Source of the DNA: Chloroflexota bacterium
GTDB lineage: Bacteria; Chloroflexota; UBA11872; VXNJ01
Assembly: GCA_009840625.1 (NCBI GenBank)
Contig: VXNJ01000008.1
Coordinates: 1-55,423 of the forward strand
Length of the DNA: 55,423 nucleotides
Direction of reading: 5' to 3'
Below the pieces are notes generated by a model that saw nothing but the letters and a program-made list of their open reading frames with translations, made no database searches and was not told where the DNA came from. Below, piece by piece: positions 40,488 to 51,414 of this stretch (position 1 is the stretch's first letter; the number at the start of each line of letters is the position of its first letter). Both the position numbers and the translations under genes were made by a program.

Positions 40488-41576
40488 CTAGCGGGCGGCC
40501 GGGTTCGGTCCTGGAAGCTTGAGACCGGGGTCGATGTCCGGGAATGCCCCGGCGCTCCAGCCGCTCATGTCCCCGGATATGGCCACCATTGCGCCATTGT
40601 CAACGCAATAGGCAAAGTCCGGCACGTGAACCTTCAGCGGGCTCTCGGCGGACAGGCGCGAGCGCAGGCGCAGATTGGCGGCCACCCCGCCGCATAGCAG
40701 CACCGAACGCGCGCTGTAGCGACGGGCCGCCAGCAAGGTGTTCTTTATCAGCATGTCGGCAATCGCGTCCTCAAGGCCTGCCGCCATGCGACCGATCGAA
40801 TCCGGGCTGGCCCGTTCGAACTCGGCCGGATCGCTGGCCCCAAATATCTGGCCGCGCTCGTGTGGGCCCAGCTTGCCGGCGCGGGCGCGGCCGATCGCGC
40901 TCTTGATTCCGGCCAGCGAGAAATCCAGGCTGTCCGGCAGACGCGGGCGCGGCAGCCGGTAGGGTTCCAGCCCCGTCGCCCGGGCCTGTTCGGCCGCGGC
41001 CTGGATCGCCGGTCCGCCGGGGAATCCGAGCCCCATGATGCGGGCGGCCTTGTCGAACGCCTCACCGACGGCATCGTCGCGGGTACGGCCCAGCAGGCGA
41101 TGATCGCCGGGTCCATGCATGACGGTCAACTCGCTGTGGCCGCCGGAGACCAGCAGGCAGATCGCGGGAAACTGCGGTTCATCGCCCGGAGACAAATCCA
41201 GCCAACAGGCGTGGGCGTGGGCGGCAAGGTGGTTCACCGGCCAGAGGGGTATACCCAGCCGCGCCGCCAGGCCCTGCCCGAAGTTGTAGCCGACCAGCAG
41301 CGATCCGGCCAGTCCGGGACCGTAGGTGGCGGCGATCGCATCGATCTCCGCCAGCTCCAGGCCAGCATCGGCAAGGGCTTGCTCAAGCACCGGGCCGATG
41401 GCCAATATGTGCTGCCGGGCCGCCAATTCGGGCACGATCCCACCCCAGGCCGCGTGCTCGTCCACGCTCGACTGGGTGGCCAGCGCCAGGCACCGCCGGT
41501 CCCGAACGATCGCGATCGATGTGTCGTCGCAGGATGTCTCTATCCCCAATACGGCAATGGAATTGGAATCAGACAT
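40488..41576 (-). CDS. tsaD: tRNA N6-threonylcarbamoyladenosine transferase TsaD
   Basis: TsaD transfers the threonylcarbamoyl group to A37 of ANN-decoding tRNAs. The 362-aa protein has the ASKHA fold: VLGIETSCDDTSIAIV, the metal-binding HLAAHAHA, LLVSGGHSEL, DDAVGEAFDKAARIMGLGFPGGP and the C-terminal CVDNGAMVAISG. Length is normal. The start overlaps the rimI end by 8 bp. TsaB, TsaE and RimI are upstream, so most of the t6A set is together; TsaC is not in the window. Confidence 0.97.
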   Translation of the reverse strand: MSDSNSIAVLGIETSCDDTSIAIVRDRRCLALATQSSVDEHAAWGGIVPELAARQHILAIGPVLEQALADAGLELAEIDAIAATYGPGLAGSLLVGYNFGQGLAARLGIPLWPVNHLAAHAHACWLDLSPGDEPQFPAICLLVSGGHSELTVMHGPGDHRLLGRTRDDAVGEAFDKAARIMGLGFPGGPAIQAAAEQARATGLEPYRLPRPRLPDSLDFSLAGIKSAIGRARAGKLGPHERGQIFGASDPAEFERASPDSIGRMAAGLEDAIADMLIKNTLLAARRYSARSVLLCGGVAANLRLRSRLSAESPLKVHVPDFAYCVDNGAMVAISGDMSGWSAGAFPDIDPGLKLPGPNPAAR

Positions 41577-42213
41577 TCGAGCGCCAGTGAAAGCGTTCGC
41601 TCAGGCGGGTGCGAGTCTGGTCGAGGATCTCGTCGAACAGTGGCGAATTGATGTCCTCGGACCACATCACGATCGCGTCCTCGCGATTGTCCGAGTAATA
41701 GCGCTTGCGAACCGCTTTTTCAAAAAAACCCATGCGCCGATAGATGCTGCGCGCCCGCTGGTTGGATTCACGGACCTCGAGCGTGAGGCGCTTCATCCCG
41801 CGCGACCGCCCGAGTTCGGTTACCAGCAGCAGCATCAACCTTCCCAGTCCGAGGCTCTGGTAATCAGGATCGACCGCGATTGTGGTTATGTGGACCTCGT
41901 CGACCAGGAACCAAGCGCCGATGAATCCGACCAGGTTTTGCTCGTTCCAGTCCTCGCGTCCCGCCAAGCGGCGCAAGATTCCTCCGATTCGCGCCGGCGG
42001 CAGCGGTCCGCCAGGACTCTTGACCGGCTCTCCCAACCTCAGCACGAGATAACAGGCGCTGTCGGAGCGCCGCAGTTCGGCGTTGAATGCGTTGCGCGGC
42101 CACGGCGAATCGAAGCAGCGGCGCTCGACGTAGCGCACCGATGGAATGTCCTCGTGGCGCATCAGGTCGATCTGCACTCCTCCGGAGAGCATTTCGGTCA
42201 ATTCCGAATTCAA
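41569..42213 (-). CDS. rimI: Ribosomal protein alanine acetyltransferase-like GNAT (RimI)
   Basis: This GNAT acetyltransferase has the acetyl-CoA loop QSLGLGRLMLLLV and the RimI-like segments EVHITTIAVDPDYQ, LTLEVRESNQRARSIYRRMGF and YYSDNREDAIVMW. RimI acetylates the N-terminus of ribosomal protein S18 and is often fused to or next to TsaB and TsaD, as here. TTG at 42213 is chosen because a GGGAGGA site lies just upstream and it follows tsaB by 22 bp. A longer frame to 42315 would overlap tsaB. An insertion between the first two strands makes it somewhat longer (214 aa) than typical RimI. Confidence 0.88.
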   Translation of the reverse strand: MNSELTEMLSGGVQIDLMRHEDIPSVRYVERRCFDSPWPRNAFNAELRRSDSACYLVLRLGEPVKSPGGPLPPARIGGILRRLAGREDWNEQNLVGFIGAWFLVDEVHITTIAVDPDYQSLGLGRLMLLLVTELGRSRGMKRLTLEVRESNQRARSIYRRMGFFEKAVRKRYYSDNREDAIVMWSEDINSPLFDEILDQTRTRLSERFHWRSNV

Positions 42214-42235
42214 CGTTCCTCCCTGCGGTTCCGGT

Positions 42236-42856
42236 TCAAACCGCCGCCGGCCCCAGCGCCGGGCGGGTGACGTAGATCGGGCGCAAAATCTTCGATTCAT
42301 CGGGCGACTTTTCAACGAGCAAGTGCTGCCCTAGCTCGGCGGTCAGCCGGGCCGCGGGTCTCGGCAACGGGCGGCCCAAATCGCGCGGATCAATCCAGAC
42401 TCGTTCGCCGGGCGGCGGCTCGGCCGAGACAACCCGGTGCGCGGCACCGGCGGGATGCCAGCCCGATTCTGCGACCGACCCGGATTGACCGAATCGGATC
42501 CGCCCGCCGCCGCTGGAGCAAATCTGCAGCCGGTCGGCTGGCTGGCCGACCGCCCCGGCCAGCATCTGAAACAGACTGACACCGTACAACCGGGCATCGT
42601 CGGCCCGGGCCAGACCCATTGCGAACGCCATTCCGGTTCGAATCGCCGAGAACTTGCCCGGACCCATCCCGACCGCTACGGCCGCGATTTGCGCGTCCGG
42701 CTCCGGCAAGACCTGTCGCAGCAAGGTGCCCAGATTGGCGGAATTGAGCTCGGCTTCGGCGTATCGGGTCCGCGCGCCACCATGACCCAGCAGGCAAAAC
42801 CCTAATCGGTCGAATCCGCAGTCAATGCCCAGCACTAACCCGTCCTGCGACTTCAC
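42236..42856 (-). CDS. tsaB: t6A biosynthesis protein TsaB
   Basis: TsaB is the non-catalytic partner of TsaD. The 206-aa protein has the N-terminal VLGIDCGFDRLGFCLL and the family segment VAVGMGPGKFSAIRTGMAFAMGLA (usually GPGSFTGLR). GTG at 42856 overlaps the tsaE stop as GTGA, and a longer frame up to 43018 would lie inside tsaE. The second half is Arg/Pro-rich and weakly conserved, as usual for TsaB. Confidence 0.92.
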   Translation of the reverse strand: MKSQDGLVLGIDCGFDRLGFCLLGHGGARTRYAEAELNSANLGTLLRQVLPEPDAQIAAVAVGMGPGKFSAIRTGMAFAMGLARADDARLYGVSLFQMLAGAVGQPADRLQICSSGGGRIRFGQSGSVAESGWHPAGAAHRVVSAEPPPGERVWIDPRDLGRPLPRPAARLTAELGQHLLVEKSPDESKILRPIYVTRPALGPAAV

Positions 42857-43353
42857 CAGGGGTCCTTCCCCAGCCGCGCCAATAGCGCGCGGGCGGGATC
42901 GCTGCGAGCCCGCAGACCGATTCGCCGGCGGTTCGGCCCGGTAACTGCAATAAGCACCTCCAGGATCGCCGGACCGCCGAGACCGCCCAGCAGGCCGTTC
43001 AACGACTCGCTGGGCCATTCGACCGCCACAACGGCCGGCGCCGCCAGCGGTTCATCCAGGCCGGCGTCTTCGATGTCGGCCTCCGGGATCCTGAATAGAT
43101 CCATGTGGACGAGCGGCAGGCGACCGCCCCTATAGTGACTGCAAAGCACGAACGTCGGCGAGGTTACCGGGCCCTCCGATCCAAGTCCGGCCGCCAGGCC
43201 CTTGACCAGAACAGTCTTCCCGGACCCGAGTTCGCCGTTAAGCAGGAGAAGGGTACCGGCTCCGGCAACCTGGGCCAGCGACCGGCCGAGTAAGCGGGTT
43301 CGCCCGGGATCGGGCGAATCAATGCTGCGGTCGCAGCGGGGCCGGTCGTTCAT
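42853..43353 (-). CDS. tsaE: t6A biosynthesis ATPase TsaE
   Basis: TsaE is the ATPase that resets the TsaB-TsaD complex. The 166-aa protein has Walker A NGELGSGKTVLVKGLAAGLG, then VTSPTFVLCSHYRGGRLPLVHMDLFRI with the conserved HxDxYR-like HMDLFR, and VAVEWPS near the end. It heads the t6A set and is divergent from mraY with only about 40 bp between starts, so promoters must overlap the coding ends or lie in that short gap. Confidence 0.94.
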   Translation of the reverse strand: MNDRPRCDRSIDSPDPGRTRLLGRSLAQVAGAGTLLLLNGELGSGKTVLVKGLAAGLGSEGPVTSPTFVLCSHYRGGRLPLVHMDLFRIPEADIEDAGLDEPLAAPAVVAVEWPSESLNGLLGGLGGPAILEVLIAVTGPNRRRIGLRARSDPARALLARLGKDPW

Positions 43354-43392
43354 CGCCCGGACGCCGTCGCCGAATTGCAGACAGATAACAAA

Positions 43393-44715
43393 ATGAATCT
43401 AGTGATCCCGCGCACCGGGATCGGGCTGCGCGAAACGGGAGGACACCGAATCGGCTTTTTCGCGGGTGCATCGGCGGTCACGGTGCTGGCGATCGGCGCG
43501 CTGTTGTGGCGGCTGTTGCCCGGTTTCGTATCCGGCGAGAACAAGACCGGTCACTACCGTGCCCGCGCCGGACGGCGGAGTCGACGGTTGCCGCTGGTCG
43601 GCGGCCCGGCCATTCTGGCGGGGATTGGCGCGGCGGCAATTGCCAGCGATTCCGAACCCACTCTGGCCTGCCTGGTCGCGGCGGCGGCTTTCTTCCTCGG
43701 CGGGCTGGTGGACGACCTGCTCAAAGCGCGGCGGGGGCGTGGACTGAGCGAGCGAGCGAGCATGATGGTCGCGGTTTTCTCGGCAGCCTGGGCCAGTGGC
43801 TGGCTGCTGGCAGCCGAACCCACCACCGGCGCGTTTGCTCTCGCTAACTGGATTGACAACTCGGTCCTGCTGGCCGGCTGGTATTTCCTACTAATTTTGG
43901 CCATTGCCCTGGGGGCAGGGTTCAGCGACGGCATCGACTCTTTGGCAGCGGGACTGGGACTGATTGGCCTTGGCGCGCTCTGGATTGGGGGCGCGGGAAG
44001 CGCCGGTGAAACGGCTGCACTGATCGGAGCCGGATTGGCCGGATTTTTGGCCCTGAACCTGCCTGGCCGGGGTCGGCGTCTGGCTTTGATCTACCTGGGC
44101 GACAGCGGCGCGCTGCTGATCGGCGTTCTCCTGGCGGGAACGGCGATCCTCACCGGTTACGACCTTCTGCTGCCGCTGTTGGCCGGGGTCTGGATTCTTG
44201 AAGGCGCATCATCCCTGGTCCAGGCAAAGCTGCTGGTGCCCCTCTATCGGCGTTCCCGCCGGCTCGGCGGCGTCGACCACCGCACCCGGCCCTACCAGCA
44301 TTTCCGTTTGCCGTTCATTGCAACTCCGCTGCATCACCATCTCGACATCTGCGGTCTTGGGCGGTTCCGGACAGTTTCGGTTCTCTTCGCCTTGCAAGTG
44401 GTGTTTTCAGGCCTGGCATTGCTAAGCATCGCCGTGTTGTCGGCCTGGCAGGCGGTGCTGCTGGCGGTGGTCGCCTGCGGATTGGCCTGGTTGGCCATCT
44501 CCAGCTTGCGAACGGCCCGGATTTTCTTGCGCGAGAGAGCCGGGCGACGTGAAATCGTGTTTCGCCACGGACGGTGGGGATTCCTCTCTATCGAGCGTGA
44601 TCGGCTCACGGTACCACCCGGAGCGGATGTGCCGGGCGAGGTCGGCGGCGGTTGGTTGGATCCCTCAACCGCGGCAGCCCGGTGGGACCGGTTGCGGACC
44701 AGGGTCGAGCCCTGA
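43393..44715 (+). CDS. mraY: MraY-like phospho-MurNAc-pentapeptide transferase with C-terminal extension
   Basis: MraY makes lipid I at the membrane. The protein has about ten membrane helices and the superfamily residues: LPLVGGPAILAG (PTMGG-like), GGLVDDLLKARRG (DD pair), GFSDGIDSLAAGL (usually NLTDGLDGLA), IYLGDSGALLIG (GDxGS-like) and the MraY-specific His motif PLHHHLDICG. The HHH motif separates MraY from WecA/TagO. A soluble tail of about 60 residues follows the last helix, ending WDRLRTRVEP, which typical MraY lacks. ATG at 43393 is preferred; TTG at 43375 is possible. MurF genes downstream support the assignment. Confidence 0.85.
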   Translation: MNLVIPRTGIGLRETGGHRIGFFAGASAVTVLAIGALLWRLLPGFVSGENKTGHYRARAGRRSRRLPLVGGPAILAGIGAAAIASDSEPTLACLVAAAAFFLGGLVDDLLKARRGRGLSERASMMVAVFSAAWASGWLLAAEPTTGAFALANWIDNSVLLAGWYFLLILAIALGAGFSDGIDSLAAGLGLIGLGALWIGGAGSAGETAALIGAGLAGFLALNLPGRGRRLALIYLGDSGALLIGVLLAGTAILTGYDLLLPLLAGVWILEGASSLVQAKLLVPLYRRSRRLGGVDHRTRPYQHFRLPFIATPLHHHLDICGLGRFRTVSVLFALQVVFSGLALLSIAVLSAWQAVLLAVVACGLAWLAISSLRTARIFLRERAGRREIVFRHGRWGFLSIERDRLTVPPGADVPGEVGGGWLDPSTAAARWDRLRTRVEP

Positions 44716-45680
44716 TGAGGGGCGGACATCCAAGCGACAGACTCCTTGCGGCGTTGCTGGGAGCGTGCGGCGCAATAGTGCGCGAACCGCTCGGCGAACG
44801 GACCCGCCACCAGGTGCAGCGCATTCGCGCCGGCCGGCGCAGCTGGGTGCTAAAAACCTACCGGCGCGAAACCGATGAGCACTTTGCGCACCGCTTCCGC
44901 CGCGAGGAGCGCGTCCTGACGCTTCTGGCGGCTTCGGCGCCGGGGCTCGCGCCGGCACTTGAGGCCGGAGTCATAGGAACCGACCAGGCGTTTCTGGTCA
45001 TGGACGATCTGGGGGTGGGAGCGGCCAGCCTGCACCGGGTGCTCAGCGGCTCCGGGTGCCCGATCGAACCGCTCGCCAAGGCGGTGGCAGCGCTGGCCGA
45101 GTGGCACGCCGTCACCGCGGATCTGCACGACTTATTGGCCGCGTTCTGTCAGAGCATCGTGCTGGATCGAAACGATCGGGAAACGCTGGCGCGCCGACAC
45201 CTCCTCGCCCTCCGGCGAATTGGTGTGGAGTTGCCGGCAGCTAAGGCCCGTTCCTTTGCGGGCCGGGTCATCGATCCCCTGCTGGAGAGCGCGCCGCGGG
45301 TCTTACACAACTCGGCGAATGCGCTAAATTTCGTCGTTCGGGCGGACGGATCGGTAGCGCTGATCGACTTTGAGACTATTTCGCTTGGGCCGCTCGAAAT
45401 CGACCTCGGCGAACTGGCGATACACCCCGCTGTGTTCGGCCGCCACGGCCTTGCCGGGACGGCCGCCTTGTACCCGGGCGATGTGGACCCGGAAGCGCTG
45501 GCGCGCGCCGGCTTGCTGCGGGCCATCGATTCCTGCGGGGCGCTGGCGCGGCAGGCGCGGCAGGACCCCGATCCGGAGTCGGCCGGCAAACTGGATCGCC
45601 GTGCGCGCCGCTACCGGGAAGTGGCCATCCAGATTGCCGAAGAGATCGGCGTCGACGACTGCGGGATTCCGGCAGCGTGA
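44715..45680 (+). CDS. APH-fold kinase-like protein lacking the catalytic Asp
   Basis: The 321-aa protein has the two-lobe aminoglycoside phosphotransferase/choline kinase fold: ATP-lobe Lys in WVLKTYRR, helix-C Glu in FRREERVLTLL, hinge FLVMDDLG, and the metal motif IDFE (D218). In the catalytic loop HxDxxxxN the Asp is replaced by Ser: H198-N-S200-A-N-A-L-N205. It may therefore be a pseudokinase or use a different base. It overlaps mraY by one base and the next gene by 4 bp. A role as an amino-sugar kinase like AmgK in wall recycling would suit the locus but is not supported by the active site. Confidence 0.75.
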   Translation: MRGGHPSDRLLAALLGACGAIVREPLGERTRHQVQRIRAGRRSWVLKTYRRETDEHFAHRFRREERVLTLLAASAPGLAPALEAGVIGTDQAFLVMDDLGVGAASLHRVLSGSGCPIEPLAKAVAALAEWHAVTADLHDLLAAFCQSIVLDRNDRETLARRHLLALRRIGVELPAAKARSFAGRVIDPLLESAPRVLHNSANALNFVVRADGSVALIDFETISLGPLEIDLGELAIHPAVFGRHGLAGTAALYPGDVDPEALARAGLLRAIDSCGALARQARQDPDPESAGKLDRRARRYREVAIQIAEEIGVDDCGIPAA

Positions 45681-48181
45681 TCCTGCTTGAAGACTTTCTG
45701 ACCGCGACCGGCGGACGCCTAAGCGGTTCGGTGGAGCGCCGGCGTTGGAGCGGATTTGCCCACGACAGCCGTCAGGTGGCCGCCGACCGGATATTCGTGG
45801 CCATGCGTACCGAATCCGGCGACGGACACGCTTACATTGCCGACGCGGTGGGCAACGGCGCGCGGTTAATCGTCTGCGAGCGCGATCCGCAAATCGATTG
45901 CGCTCACATCCTGGTCAAGGATTCGGGCCGTGCGCTGCGCGATTACGGGCGGTGGGCCGTTGAACGGTTCAATCCGACAGTGGTTGCGGTTTGCGGATCG
46001 GTCGGCAAGACGACGGTGCGCGAATTCGCCCAACAACTCTTTTCCCGACAGCGACTGACCTTTCGCAACCCGGAAAACTTCAACGGTCTGACCGGACTTC
46101 CCCTGGCACTCGGCGAATTGGGCCGCGAGCACGCTTTCGCCATCCTGGAAATGGCCTCCGACACCCGCGGCGAGATCGCCGCCCTGGCCGAGATCGCCCC
46201 GCCAAAAGTGTGTCTGCTGACCACGTTCGACGAGACCTATATCGAATACTTCGGTTCGATGTCGGAAATCGCGGCGGAACACGCCCCGATAGTGACTGCG
46301 CTGGGTTCGAGAGGATTGCTCATTTACCCGGCCGGCGACCCGATCGCCGCGGAACTGGCGGCCGCTCATTCGGGGCCCAAGTTCGCGTACGGAATCGGAT
46401 CTGGCCAGCTACGCGCCGAACAGCTCGCTTCCGATTCGGACCGATCAACGTTCCTGCTCTGCGGGCAGGGTGATGAGGTCGAAGTGGAGCTGCCGCACGG
46501 CGGGCGCGGCCAGGTTCTCTGCCTGTTGGCGGCGCTCGGCGCCGGGCTGCGGCTGGGTTTTGACCCGGACCAACTGGTTCGCGACAGCAGAAAACTGCAA
46601 GCGCCGCCGGGCAGGCTTCGCCGGCTGGCCGGAAAGGGTGGCGTTACCCTGTCCGACGACAGCTTTTCGACTTCGCCGGCATCGCTTGCCAATGGACTCG
46701 AACTGCTGCGCCGGTCAGGCGGGAATCGGATTTGCGTGCTCTCCGGCTTCGAGCATTTGGGCCCACACGAAGCCGCTGCGGCGCGGCGGGTGGCCGATGA
46801 TCTGGCCAAGACCGACGAGGTTGTTTTCTACGGGCCGGACACCGCGGTTCTGCGGTCGGCGGCGCGCGCCGCCGGGCTGGCCGACGGCCAGATCCACCGG
46901 GCGCTAAACCCAAGCCAGGCCCGATTGCAGGTCGAGCGCCTGGCCAAACCTGGCGACACCGTCTATGTGAAAGGCGGTCCAGGAGCGCGCTTGGAGCAAC
47001 TCGTTGCCTCGCTGATCGCAGATCCGTCCGATGCCGCCCAGCTTTGTCGGCAAACCCGGATCTGGCAGAACGTAATTACGATCAATCCCGACGAGCCAGT
47101 CTGGGCGCGCATCGATCTGGACGCGATCACCGCCAACACCGAGGCGTTTGGTCAACACTTTGGCCCCGGCACCGAAATGATCGCGGTGCTCAAGGCCGAG
47201 GGCTACGGCCACGGCGCCCTCCGTGTGGCCACGGCCGCCCTGGACGGGGGTGCCAGCCGAGTCGCGGTCGCCCGACCCGGTGAGGCGCGCGAGCTTCGGG
47301 CGGCCGGGCTGGATGCGCCGATCCTGGTTCTGGGGGTAACCCTCCCGCGACAGCTGCGGACCGCGATTCTGGCCGATTGCGAACTCACCGTTTGCGATGC
47401 GGAACAGATCCAGGCGCTCGACGCCGCCGCCCGGGGACTGGGGCGTCGGGTCGCGATGCACCTGAAATTGGACACCGGGATGGGCCGCATCGGAGCCAGC
47501 CCGGACGACGGACCGGACCTGGCGCGAATGATCGTGGAGTCTCCAAACACCTCCCTGGCCGGCGTTTACACGCACTTCGGGCAGGCGAGCGAGACCGACC
47601 TCTCACGCGCCCGTGACCAGTTCTCTGCTTTCGAGGAGGTGCTCGCCGACTTGGAACGGGCCGGTATCGACTCCGGACTGCGCCATTGCGCCGCCACCGC
47701 GGCGGCGCTGCGCATTCCGGCAGCGCGGTTGGACGCGGTTCGACTGGGAATTGGATTGCTCGGAATCGCCCCCGGTCCCGGCATAGGATTGCCCCCCGGC
47801 TGTCGCCCGGCGCTTTCCATGCACGCCCGGGTAGTGCAAGTCAGACCGCAAAAGGCCGGGGCCGTGATCGGATACGGCACCTCCGGGCGACTTGGCCGTG
47901 ATGCGCTGATCGCCACCGTGGGAGCCGGTTACGGCGACGGGTTCCGGCGCGGACCGCGCGCCTGGGGTCCGGTGATGATCCGCGGGCGCAAAGTCCCGAT
48001 AGTGGGCCAAGTCTGCATGGACATGTTCATGGTCGATGTGACCGACGTGCCCGAGGTCCGGGTCGGCGACCAAGTCGAATTGATCGGTCCCCAACTGCCG
48101 GCCCGGATCGCCGCCGAACGCACTGAAACCATCGCTTACGAAGTAGTCTCGTCGCTGCTGTCGCGGGTGCCCCGTGTCTGA
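45677..48181 (+). CDS. MurF-like ligase fused to alanine racemase
   Basis: This 834-aa protein joins two enzymes. Residues 1-465 are a Mur ligase of MurF type: FAHDSRQVAADRIFVAM, ATP loop GSVGKTT (K111), FRNPENFNGLTGLPL and the C-terminal LSDDSFSTSPASLANGLELL. The segment usually NxGxAHxExFGS reads TTFDETYIEYFGS, so a conserved His is changed. Residues from about 475 are a PLP alanine racemase with Lys506 (VLKAEGYGHG), catalytic Tyr752 (GAGYGDGFRR) and GQVCMDMFMVDVTD. The fused racemase could feed D-Ala to D-Ala-D-Ala synthesis. Such fusions are known in Bacteroidota, but here a canonical murF is also present 0.8 kb downstream. The start, GTG, overlaps the kinase-like gene. Confidence 0.93.
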   Translation: MILLEDFLTATGGRLSGSVERRRWSGFAHDSRQVAADRIFVAMRTESGDGHAYIADAVGNGARLIVCERDPQIDCAHILVKDSGRALRDYGRWAVERFNPTVVAVCGSVGKTTVREFAQQLFSRQRLTFRNPENFNGLTGLPLALGELGREHAFAILEMASDTRGEIAALAEIAPPKVCLLTTFDETYIEYFGSMSEIAAEHAPIVTALGSRGLLIYPAGDPIAAELAAAHSGPKFAYGIGSGQLRAEQLASDSDRSTFLLCGQGDEVEVELPHGGRGQVLCLLAALGAGLRLGFDPDQLVRDSRKLQAPPGRLRRLAGKGGVTLSDDSFSTSPASLANGLELLRRSGGNRICVLSGFEHLGPHEAAAARRVADDLAKTDEVVFYGPDTAVLRSAARAAGLADGQIHRALNPSQARLQVERLAKPGDTVYVKGGPGARLEQLVASLIADPSDAAQLCRQTRIWQNVITINPDEPVWARIDLDAITANTEAFGQHFGPGTEMIAVLKAEGYGHGALRVATAALDGGASRVAVARPGEARELRAAGLDAPILVLGVTLPRQLRTAILADCELTVCDAEQIQALDAAARGLGRRVAMHLKLDTGMGRIGASPDDGPDLARMIVESPNTSLAGVYTHFGQASETDLSRARDQFSAFEEVLADLERAGIDSGLRHCAATAAALRIPAARLDAVRLGIGLLGIAPGPGIGLPPGCRPALSMHARVVQVRPQKAGAVIGYGTSGRLGRDALIATVGAGYGDGFRRGPRAWGPVMIRGRKVPIVGQVCMDMFMVDVTDVPEVRVGDQVELIGPQLPARIAAERTETIAYEVVSSLLSRVPRV

Positions 48182-48992
48182 GATCTACATGCACAGCTGG
48201 ACGTTCCGCGAACGGAGCTTTGCCGAGGCATGCCAGGCCGCGGCCGCAATCGGGTACGACGGGATCGAAATATTCCCCGGGCACTTCCCCGTACCGGACG
48301 ATCCGGTCGGATCGATCGCAATGCTGGCCGCGGAGGCCGAATCCGCCGGGACCGCCATTGCGGCGGTCCCGCTGCGCGCCGACAGCCGCTCGGCGGCCGA
48401 GTTCGACCGAGCCGCCGGTACCGCCGAGAAGGTACTGGATGCGGGTTCCGAGACTGGCGCGAAATTCGTCAATTGCATGATCTCGCAGATTCCCGGGCCT
48501 TCCTGGTCGGAGGCCGGTTCGGCCGCGATCAGCGGGCACCAGCACAGCTGGACCCAGCATTATGTAAAGTTTTTGGCTGAATCATCGCGCGGCCGCAGCC
48601 CCGCCATATGTCTCGAAACGCACATGGTTTGCGCGCACGATAGCGCGGCGGCCGCGGCCGGTTATGTCAAGGGTCTTGGCGGCCGGCTCGGCATCACCCT
48701 CGATCCGGCCAATTTGGCCGGCTACGGGCACGGTGAATCCTGGGAGCAGGCCATAGCGCTGGCTTCGCAGGAAATCCTTTACCTGCACGCCAAGAACCAC
48801 CACGGTCGCGGGCAGGGCGCCGATTACGATCGCGGTCTGGCTGACGGCGATATCGACTGGTCCGGCGTGATCAGATCCCTGCGCAACCGAGCATCGCTAC
48901 CGCCGATTTGCATCGAATACTCGGGTAGCGCTGAGCCGTGGGGGACCGCCGCACGCGACTTCGAATTCCTCCAGAGCCTGATCGCGCGTTAG
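48174..48992 (+). CDS. Xylose isomerase-like TIM-barrel protein (sugar phosphate isomerase/epimerase family)
   Basis: The 272-aa protein has the AP-endonuclease-2/xylose isomerase-like barrel: EIYMHSWTFRERSFAEACQAA at the start, AIGYDGIEIFPGHF, then metal-site candidates E in CLETHMV, D in TLDPANL, H in YLHAKNHH and E in CIEYSGS. Members isomerise or epimerise sugars; the substrate is not evident. The GTG start overlaps the fusion gene by 8 bp and the stop is followed at once by murF, so a role in cell-wall sugar or amino-sugar metabolism is possible by context only. Confidence 0.78.
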   Translation: MSEIYMHSWTFRERSFAEACQAAAAIGYDGIEIFPGHFPVPDDPVGSIAMLAAEAESAGTAIAAVPLRADSRSAAEFDRAAGTAEKVLDAGSETGAKFVNCMISQIPGPSWSEAGSAAISGHQHSWTQHYVKFLAESSRGRSPAICLETHMVCAHDSAAAAAGYVKGLGGRLGITLDPANLAGYGHGESWEQAIALASQEILYLHAKNHHGRGQGADYDRGLADGDIDWSGVIRSLRNRASLPPICIEYSGSAEPWGTAARDFEFLQSLIAR

Positions 48993-50396
48993 GTGGCATT
49001 CAAGCTTTCGGAACTGCAACTCGCGCTGGGGCGCAACCTGGCCGGCGACCCGGAGTTGGAATTTAGCCGGATCCAGTTCGATTCGCGGCGCCAGCTCTCG
49101 GCGAGCCTCTTCGTAGCCCTGCCCGGACGAAGAACCGACGGCCGGCGGTTCGTGGCCCAGGCCCTGGCCGGCGGGGCGCACCGGGCGGTCGTCGATTCGC
49201 TGGTGCCAGATGCCGATCCGGACCGGCAGATCCAAGTTGACGATCCGCTGGCGGCGATGGCCCGTCTGGCCACCCTGCTGCGGCAAAAGCGCGCCCCGCG
49301 GGCAGTCGTAGGGATCACCGGGTCAAACGGCAAAACGACCACCAAGGACATGGTCGCGGCGGCGCTCCAACCGCTTGGCAGGATTCAAAAATCCCAGGCC
49401 AGCTTCAACGCCGAGATCGGGGTCCCGGTCACGATCGCCGACCTGGATCCGGGCGTCGATTTCGCGGTGGTCGAACTGGGCGCCCAGGAGGTTGGCGAAA
49501 TCACGCGCTATTGCCGCATCGCCGATCCCACCGACGCCGTCATCACCAACATCGGGCACGCCCATATCGGGCTGTTCGGGTCGCGAGAGAACATCGCTTT
49601 CGCCAAGGGCGAATTGGGGGCATGGCTGCGGCCGGAAGGAAACCTGGTCCTGAACGCCGACGATCCGTATGCCGCCCGGCTCGCCGAGCGCACGCGCGGG
49701 CGAGTACGTTGGATTTCGGAACGCGATTCCGCCGCCGAATTCCAGGTCAGTGCCCGGCCTACCGACCGCGGGCTTTGCTTTTCACTGACTTCTCCTGCCG
49801 GTTGCGCGGACGTCGAATTGCCGACGCTTTCGCCGAAGGTGGGCCTGGCCTGCGCGGCGGCCGCGGCGATTGCCGACAGCCTGGGGGTCCACATACACGA
49901 CGCCGCCACGGGCATGGCCGCGGTTACCCTGGCGCCGCGCCGGATGCAGGTCCTGGCCAGAAGCCCTTACCTGGTGATCGACGATTCCTACAACGCCAAT
50001 TTCGAATCCGGAACCGCTGCCCTGCAAGCTCTCGCCGGGGCCGGCGTTGACGGGCGTCGCGTAGCGGTGCTTGGGGAAATGCTGGAGCTGGGCCCGTTCG
50101 CCGCGATTTCGCACGCCGACCTCGGCGCCCACGCGACCGATCTTGCCTTGCTTCTGACCGTCGGCCAAAACGCGCGCCTGATCGGCGAGTCAGCCCGGTC
50201 AAGGGGGCTGGCGCCGGAACGCTGGCGGCACTTTGAGGCCGATCCCGGCGACGCCGAAACGGTTGCCGCGGCGCTTGACGAGGTCGAAGCCGACCTGCGG
50301 GACTGGCTACGCCCCGGTGATGCCTTGCTGGTCAAGGGATCGAACGCCCTCAATCTCGCACAGGTCGCAAACCGCATCGCCGCTGACCAGTCGTAG
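48993..50396 (+). CDS. murF: UDP-MurNAc-tripeptide-D-Ala-D-Ala ligase MurF
   Basis: MurF adds D-Ala-D-Ala to the UDP-MurNAc-tripeptide. The 467-aa protein is canonical: FDSRRQLSASLFVALPGRRTDGRRF, ATP loop GITGSNGKTTTKD (K114), SFNAEIGVPVTI, VELGAQEVGEI, NIGHAHIGLFGSRENIA with the conserved His, IDDSYNANFES, and VLGEMLELG. GTG at 48993 follows the previous stop directly. It shows all the residues that are altered in the fused copy upstream. Confidence 0.95.
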   Translation: MAFKLSELQLALGRNLAGDPELEFSRIQFDSRRQLSASLFVALPGRRTDGRRFVAQALAGGAHRAVVDSLVPDADPDRQIQVDDPLAAMARLATLLRQKRAPRAVVGITGSNGKTTTKDMVAAALQPLGRIQKSQASFNAEIGVPVTIADLDPGVDFAVVELGAQEVGEITRYCRIADPTDAVITNIGHAHIGLFGSRENIAFAKGELGAWLRPEGNLVLNADDPYAARLAERTRGRVRWISERDSAAEFQVSARPTDRGLCFSLTSPAGCADVELPTLSPKVGLACAAAAAIADSLGVHIHDAATGMAAVTLAPRRMQVLARSPYLVIDDSYNANFESGTAALQALAGAGVDGRRVAVLGEMLELGPFAAISHADLGAHATDLALLLTVGQNARLIGESARSRGLAPERWRHFEADPGDAETVAAALDEVEADLRDWLRPGDALLVKGSNALNLAQVANRIAADQS

Positions 50397-50532: not shown

Positions 50533-51414
50533 TCAGGCCCGGCCGCGGGCGATCGCGTCGGCGACGCGCGCACCCTGAACCCCGGCCGCGAAATCGTGCA
50601 CCCGCACGATGTCGGCGCCGCCAGCGATGGCAAGCGCGTGGGCGGCCACGGTCCCCGCCACCCGGTCCGGGAAACGGTCGGCGGCGTAGCCGATCACCGA
50701 CTTACGCGAGGCTCCGACCAGAACCGGCAGTTGGAGGCCTTGCCTGATTTCGACCAACCGGGCAAGCAGCTCCAGGTTCTGCTCCGGGCTCTTGCCGAAC
50801 CCGATCCCCGGATCAACGACGATCCGCTGGCGCCCGATTCCGGCCGCGACGGCGGATTCGATCCGGCGGCTCAGATCCTGGATCACGGCCGCCGTGATGT
50901 CTTCGCTATCGACTCCGGCAAAGTGCCGCCCGAACGATGCGTCGCGCACCGAAGTCTGCGCGCGGTGCATCAGAATGACGGGGCAGTCGGTCCGCGCCGC
51001 CAGCTGAGCCATCTGCGGGTCCGCCTGCAGCGCAGATACGTCGTTGATCAGGTCGGCGCCGTGGTCCAGCGCCGCCATGGCAACCTCGGCCTTGTAGGTG
51101 TCGATCGAAACCGGCAGGTCGGTGATCGCGCGGACCCGCTCCAGGGCCGGCAGCAGGAGTTCCAGCTCGCGCTCGGCCGGAACCGGCCGCGAACCCGGAC
51201 GGGTGGATTCGGCGCCGATGTCGAGCAGGTCGCAACCGGCGGCGGCGGCCGAATCGACGCGGCGGGCCAGCGCTTCCAGATCGGTCCCGAGGCCGTCACC
51301 GGAAAATGAGTCAGGCGACAGGTTGAGAATCGCCATAACGTAGGTTCTGTGCCCCCACCGCAGATTGCGTCCGCGCAGTCGCATCGGCGGCCAGTTACGC
51401 GAAACGCCGGTCAC
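50533..51414 (-). CDS. folP: Dihydropteroate synthase
   Basis: FolP condenses p-aminobenzoate with the pterin pyrophosphate in folate synthesis. The protein is a TIM barrel with YVMAILNLSPDSFSGDG, LLDIGAESTRPGS, PVSIDTYKAEVA, LINDVSAL, VILMHR, IVVDPGIGFGKS, PVLVGASRKSVIG and the final VRVHDF. All pterin- and phosphate-site motifs are present. The start is GTG at 51414 or ATG at 51384; the latter gives the more typical N-terminus. The 136-bp gap to murF holds only small imperfect hairpins. Its folate product supports PurN and PurH, though it is not co-transcribed with them. Confidence 0.95.
   Translation of the reverse strand: MTGVSRNWPPMRLRGRNLRWGHRTYVMAILNLSPDSFSGDGLGTDLEALARRVDSAAAAGCDLLDIGAESTRPGSRPVPAERELELLLPALERVRAITDLPVSIDTYKAEVAMAALDHGADLINDVSALQADPQMAQLAARTDCPVILMHRAQTSVRDASFGRHFAGVDSEDITAAVIQDLSRRIESAVAAGIGRQRIVVDPGIGFGKSPEQNLELLARLVEIRQGLQLPVLVGASRKSVIGYAADRFPDRVAGTVAAHALAIAGGADIVRVHDFAAGVQGARVADAIARGRA

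Follow-up and report, generated by a model that had tools for sequence, protein, structure and literature searches.

An MraY-MurF operon of a Chloroflexota order with a probable MurF pseudo-ligase fused to alanine racemase in one family

Our analysis of a 55,423-nucleotide stretch of DNA from an uncultured Chloroflexota bacterium (contig VXNJ01000008.1 of assembly GCA_009840625.1, positions 1 to 55,423; hereafter the window) concerns a peptidoglycan precursor locus. We regard this locus as probably representing an MraY-MurF operon of a Chloroflexota order that, in one family, hosts the sole canonical alanine racemase, which carries a MurF pseudo-ligase at its N-terminus. The locus comprises five open reading frames (ORFs) on the plus strand, each overlapping or abutting the next, and forms a single operon. 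An overlapped five-gene operon with two MurF modules, a racemase fusion and a partner of the aminoglycoside phosphotransferase (APH) fold had been proposed in the initial annotation. The ORFs together with Pfam and NCBIfam, which support the domain assignment of all five genes, bear this out:

43375..44715, plus strand: mraY (divergent; phospho-MurNAc-pentapeptide transferase), identified by Pfam Glycos_transf_4, TIGR00445 and motifs
44715..45680 (start inferred), plus strand: APH-fold pseudokinase-like gene, identified by PF01636, AlphaFold2 (AF2), Foldseek and residue alignment
45677..48181, plus strand: MurF-Alr fusion of 834 aa, identified by Pfam, NCBIfam, residues, AF2 and Foldseek
48174..48992, plus strand: AP_endonuc_2 TIM-barrel gene (sugar isomerase/epimerase-like), identified by PF01261
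48993..50396, plus strand: canonical murF, presumed D-Ala-D-Ala adding ligase, identified by TIGR01143, catalytic residues and conserved neighbourhood

The MurF half of the fusion and its racemase

The MurF-like half of the fusion spans about residues 1-455 and the alanine racemase about residues 474-834. Alignment with Escherichia coli MurF shows that, in the window copy, His188 is replaced by Tyr and both Lys202 and Glu363 by His, and that the DDSYNAN motif reads DDSFSTS (Tyr333 to Phe, Asn334 and Asn336 to Ser). Changes in the NxGxAHxExFGS region had been noticed in the initial annotation and are real, the NxGxAHxExFG motif reading TFDETYIEYFG; the further altered catalytic positions had escaped it. 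With the carbamylated Lys, the metal His and the DDSYNAN Asn all replaced, this half does not have the residues expected of a MurF ligase, and its score of 264 bits lies below the TIGR01143 cut-off of 288.6. PMC4816537 cites work in which the carbamylated Lys proved necessary in MurD, where Lys198 mutants are inactive and are rescued by carboxylic acids; the study cited there also covers MurE and MurF. The MurF fold itself is predicted to be kept. Most blocks of the Mur half reach about 90 pLDDT (predicted local distance difference test) in the AF2 model, which has a low-confidence linker at residues 461-472 and some weaker stretches in the racemase half. Foldseek matched the model to Acinetobacter baumannii MurF (TMt 0.87) and to alanine racemases (TMt 0.83-0.88).

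The MurF encoded downstream is canonical, as had been claimed for it, scoring 338.6 bits against the same cut-off and possessing all catalytic residues (GDM as GEM), including every position that is lost in the fused copy.

Fusions of this kind are present in many families among the 301 Chloroflexota genomes searched, others having a stand-alone racemase. The residue comparison covered 61 fusion ORFs and 27 separate MurFs of the phylum. His188 is retained in 28/61 fusions versus 27/27 separate MurFs, the carbamylated Lys202 in 13/61 versus 24/27, Tyr333 in 8/61 versus 27/27 and Glu363 in 18/61 versus 27/27, and the replacements at the lost catalytic positions vary between lineages. The P-loop Lys (K111), Thr/Ser112, Glu158, Arg316 and Asp331 are jointly retained in 56/61 fusions. 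Across the positions conserved in separate MurFs, the share retained in fusions is 93% in the N-domain, 78% in the central domain and 71% in the C-terminal domain. A phylogeny of the two MurF domains, one of the checks put forward in the initial annotation, placed the fused halves on one side of a branch with support of 100 in a tree of 69 MurF domains. On this tree the lost active-site positions require 5-12 changes each and the kept positions 1-2. Since the same active-site positions were lost repeatedly while the phosphate side was held, a pseudoenzyme fits better than random decay. Judged by these residues, the fused half appears to keep its substrate-side N-domain and the phosphate-binding residues and to have lost those that handle the metal and the acyl phosphate, so that ligation of D-Ala-D-Ala to the tripeptide is not expected of it.

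A separate MurF above the cut-off was found in 12/12 fusion genomes examined outside the window's family, and in 9 of these it retains both His188 and Lys202. The other three belong to family f3 (G024, G026 and G030), where the separate MurF has Glu at the Lys202 position and an altered flanking motif, and where the fused copy is altered too.

The racemase half of the window copy scores 310.2 bits, above the TIGR00492 cut-off of 168. The pyridoxal phosphate Lys (K506) and the catalytic Tyr (Y733), both read from alignment columns, are intact in 60/60 fusions. Genome-wide statements are drawn from family searches, the window genome being a draft of 2.27 Mb in 20 contigs. In all five genomes of the window's family one PF00842 (Ala_racemase_C) protein was found per genome, namely the fusion, which is the only canonical alanine racemase found in them and must therefore supply general D-Ala. 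A contig scan with the fusion as query gave one weak racemase relative. In ten genomes searched of the sister family f2 (G005-G023), no Ala_racemase_C protein scored above the cut-off; the same ten genomes have Ddl and MurF, and their racemase N-domain proteins are only of other types. G001 (93% complete) gave no strong Ddl match (best E 4e-9), which an assembly gap may explain.

Alternative readings and known systems

The MurF half could instead be a decaying passenger without function that is retained only via its fusion to an essential racemase, a reading that we consider rather unlikely. Decay does occur: in G002 and G004, which represent a sister genus, the fusion has 706 aa and an intact racemase, but its P-loop is gone, as is most of the C-terminal Mur domain, and in G002 Pfam detects only the racemase and no Mur domain. 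The lineage-specific replacements at the catalytic positions and the stand-alone racemase of other Chloroflexota would also suit a passenger. Such a passenger would however not be expected to hold the five phosphate-side residues jointly while the adjoining active-site residues change, nor to preserve the N-domain to the extent given above, and even G002 and G004 still have about 340 residues ahead of the racemase.

The initial annotation had offered the idea of a separate system in which the fused MurF would actively ligate a different terminal dipeptide (e.g. D-Ala-D-Lac or D-Ala-D-Ser), with its own racemase as the supplier. Our results do not support it and we hold it to be highly improbable, because the window copy has other residues at each of His188, Lys202, Tyr333, Asn334 and Glu363, which are of a kind that Mur ligases generally need, and because the sister genus has lost most of the ligase. 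Moreover, no other canonical racemase was found, so this one must feed the general D-Ala supply. What speaks for such a ligase is the kept P-loop, the predicted MurF fold and a family-specific motif common to the fusions of G000, G001 and G003 (TFDETYIEYFG, SFDQTYLEFFG, RFDETYMEYFG). A regulatory or recycling ligase had been suggested as well; of these, a regulatory role may apply, but to a pseudoenzyme and not to a ligase.

Several points weigh against the pseudo-ligase reading. Both His188 and Lys202 are retained in 13/61 fusions, and those of G154, G161 and G173 retain His188, Lys202, Tyr333, Asn334 and Glu363, so that the fused half may still ligate in some lineages. The lack of Lys202 at the aligned position in the three separate MurFs of f3 means that this residue alone is no proof. 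A role of the domain as scaffold or sensor, although probable, is read only from the retention of the domain, and ATP binding by the fused half would likewise follow only from its residues. Finally, both the window genome and those of its nearest relatives are draft assemblies and probably metagenome-assembled genomes.

In this reading the racemase half would make D-Ala, which Ddl would join; the downstream canonical MurF would add the dipeptide, and MraY would load what results onto the lipid carrier. The pseudo-ligase might keep the racemase tethered to the Mur enzymes, or else it might sense ATP or UDP-MurNAc-peptide and so tune the D-Ala supply.

Bifunctional MurF/alanine racemases of Bacteroidota (NF008897, PRK11930) have the same domain order and size as the window fusion, which shows the NF008897 architecture (MurF followed by Alr in one chain) and scores 404.9, below the equivalog cut-off of 804. 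All four Bacteroidota fusions compared retain His188, Lys202 and Asn334, and three of the four retain Tyr333, residues that the window copy does not have. Since they keep these active-site residues, the Bacteroidota fusions look like ligases, and the apparent loss of the active site is the feature that sets the Chloroflexota fusions apart from them. A single origin of the Bacteroidota and Chloroflexota fusions was not rejected (p-AU 0.46) and independent origin is therefore not claimed. In Prevotella, a record carrying the fusion likewise contains a separate MurF that passes the cut-off. The impression that a MurF-Alr fusion beside a second murF is unusual was thus mistaken: the combination is usual across Chloroflexota and is seen in Prevotella, and the second murF is no novelty.

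A further likeness is to MurT of MurT-GatD, another case of a Mur ligase fold diverted to a different task in the making of peptidoglycan precursors. MurT differs from the fused MurF half, for which neither a partner nor a reaction is known, in being active as a partner in amidation. MurT is also encoded in the window genome (L054:7601-8974), which suggests amidated lipid II.

In the open papers searched we found no description of Mur pseudoenzymes or of MurF-Alr in Chloroflexi, and the papers found on the Chloroflexota envelope do not mention murF or the racemase. As far as these papers show, the Chloroflexota pseudo-ligase pattern and the MraY-linked pseudokinase described below have not been reported before. 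Databases would label the fusion as bifunctional MurF/alanine racemase and it could be counted as a ligase, whereas the residue pattern across the phylum points, in most lineages, to a racemase with a pseudo-ligase. Such a reading would change how Chloroflexota genomes are interpreted and would provide a natural test of non-catalytic roles of Mur-domain fusions.

MraY and the APH-fold protein

MraY of the operon is divergent, with 47.9 bits to Glycos_transf_4 and 63.9 bits to TIGR00445, below the curated cut-off of 192. It keeps the active-site motifs DD, SDGID, GDSGAL and PLHHH in the alignment, HYH replacing HHH in the sister family. Glycos_transf_4 proteins number two in each of 15 genomes, namely the operon MraY and a better-scoring one. 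In the window genome this other homologue is without PLHHH and looks WecA-like, and the operon copy is therefore taken as the working and only MraY of the genome.

The APH-fold protein scores 52.5 bits against PF01636, above the cut-off of 23.2. Its gene likely begins at the ATG at 44715, because this codon overlaps the mraY stop (TGATG); the mechanically called ORF starts with a TTG at 44652. The AF2 model (pLDDT 89.5) matched the choline kinase LicA, the N-acetylhexosamine kinase NahK and APHs in Foldseek. Lys48, Glu65, loop Asn206 and Asp219 of the ATP site are invariant in the 20 aligned members, but all 20 have Ser or Gly where HxDxxxxN has its catalytic Asp. When 400 genomes of the phylum were searched with a profile, the gene turned up in 23/24 genomes of the order, two of the copies being cut off by the end of a contig, and in G053 of another family; the next match after G053 was weak and partial. 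In G053 and in all loci of the order that were fetched, the gene comes after an mraY. The G053 pair of mraY and APH-fold gene (L052:7952-10692) lies near genes that read like murT and gatD, which might reflect an old linkage or a transfer.

From linkage and residues we infer that the APH-fold protein is a nucleotide-binding partner or regulator of MraY. It would act on or with MraY. An ordinary small-molecule kinase, for example in peptidoglycan sugar recycling (AmgK-like) or in antibiotic resistance, would agree with the N-acetylhexosamine kinase, LicA and APHs among the Foldseek matches. We nevertheless consider this very unlikely and have set the AmgK or resistance reading aside, given the missing catalytic Asp, the tie to mraY and the near confinement of the gene to one order.

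The pseudokinase SelO resembles the APH-fold protein in which residues are retained and which are missing: it keeps the Lys, the loop Asn and the metal Asp, is missing the catalytic Asp and transfers AMP (PMC12599244). The APH-fold protein differs from SelO in being APH/choline-kinase-like in sequence and fold and in its linkage to MraY. Another pseudokinase domain, in Mycobacterium tuberculosis MviN (MurJ), is connected with the membrane stage of peptidoglycan synthesis (PMC12599244). Unlike the APH-fold protein, that domain is protein-kinase-like, lies inside a membrane protein and is deficient in ATP and magnesium binding.

A more far-reaching and quite improbable proposal is that two linked pseudoenzymes control the supply of lipid-linked precursors. 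Here the Mur pseudo-ligase would sense ATP or UDP-MurNAc-peptide and gate the only racemase, and the APH-fold protein would bind or modify MraY or the lipid carrier by a reaction that needs no catalytic Asp (e.g. AMP transfer, or transfer of a phosphoryl moiety to a group that is already acidic). The linkage of a pseudokinase to MraY suggests that the first membrane step of cell wall synthesis, at which antibiotics are aimed, has a hitherto unstudied control point.

Conservation and surroundings of the locus

Locus comparison showed that mraY, the APH-fold gene and murF adjoin in relatives from both families of the order. The downstream murF is conserved through the order, and in the sister family it is the direct neighbour of the APH-fold gene. 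Only in the window's family are these two genes separated by the MurF-Alr and TIM-barrel genes, both of which the sister family lacks at that position. Conservation of the five-gene order, which the initial annotation had named as a point to be checked, proved complete in four of the five family genomes (G000, G001, G002 and G004). In G003 the locus is split across two contigs, one of which stops inside the operon, the separate murF sitting on the other. The loci of the order mostly have divergent tsaE-rimI-tsaD at one flank and folP at the opposite one. The corresponding genes in the window are:

40488..43353, minus strand: tsaE, tsaB, rimI and tsaD, divergent neighbours in a conserved setting, identified by Pfam and locus comparison
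50533..51414, minus strand: folP, downstream flank conserved in both families, identified by Pfam and locus comparison

The TIM-barrel protein matches PF01261 with 66.1 bits, and its candidate metal ligands E, D, H and E are conserved in the four aligned sequences. Its gene is found in 5/5 family genomes and is absent in the sister family, and two distant homologues occur in the class.

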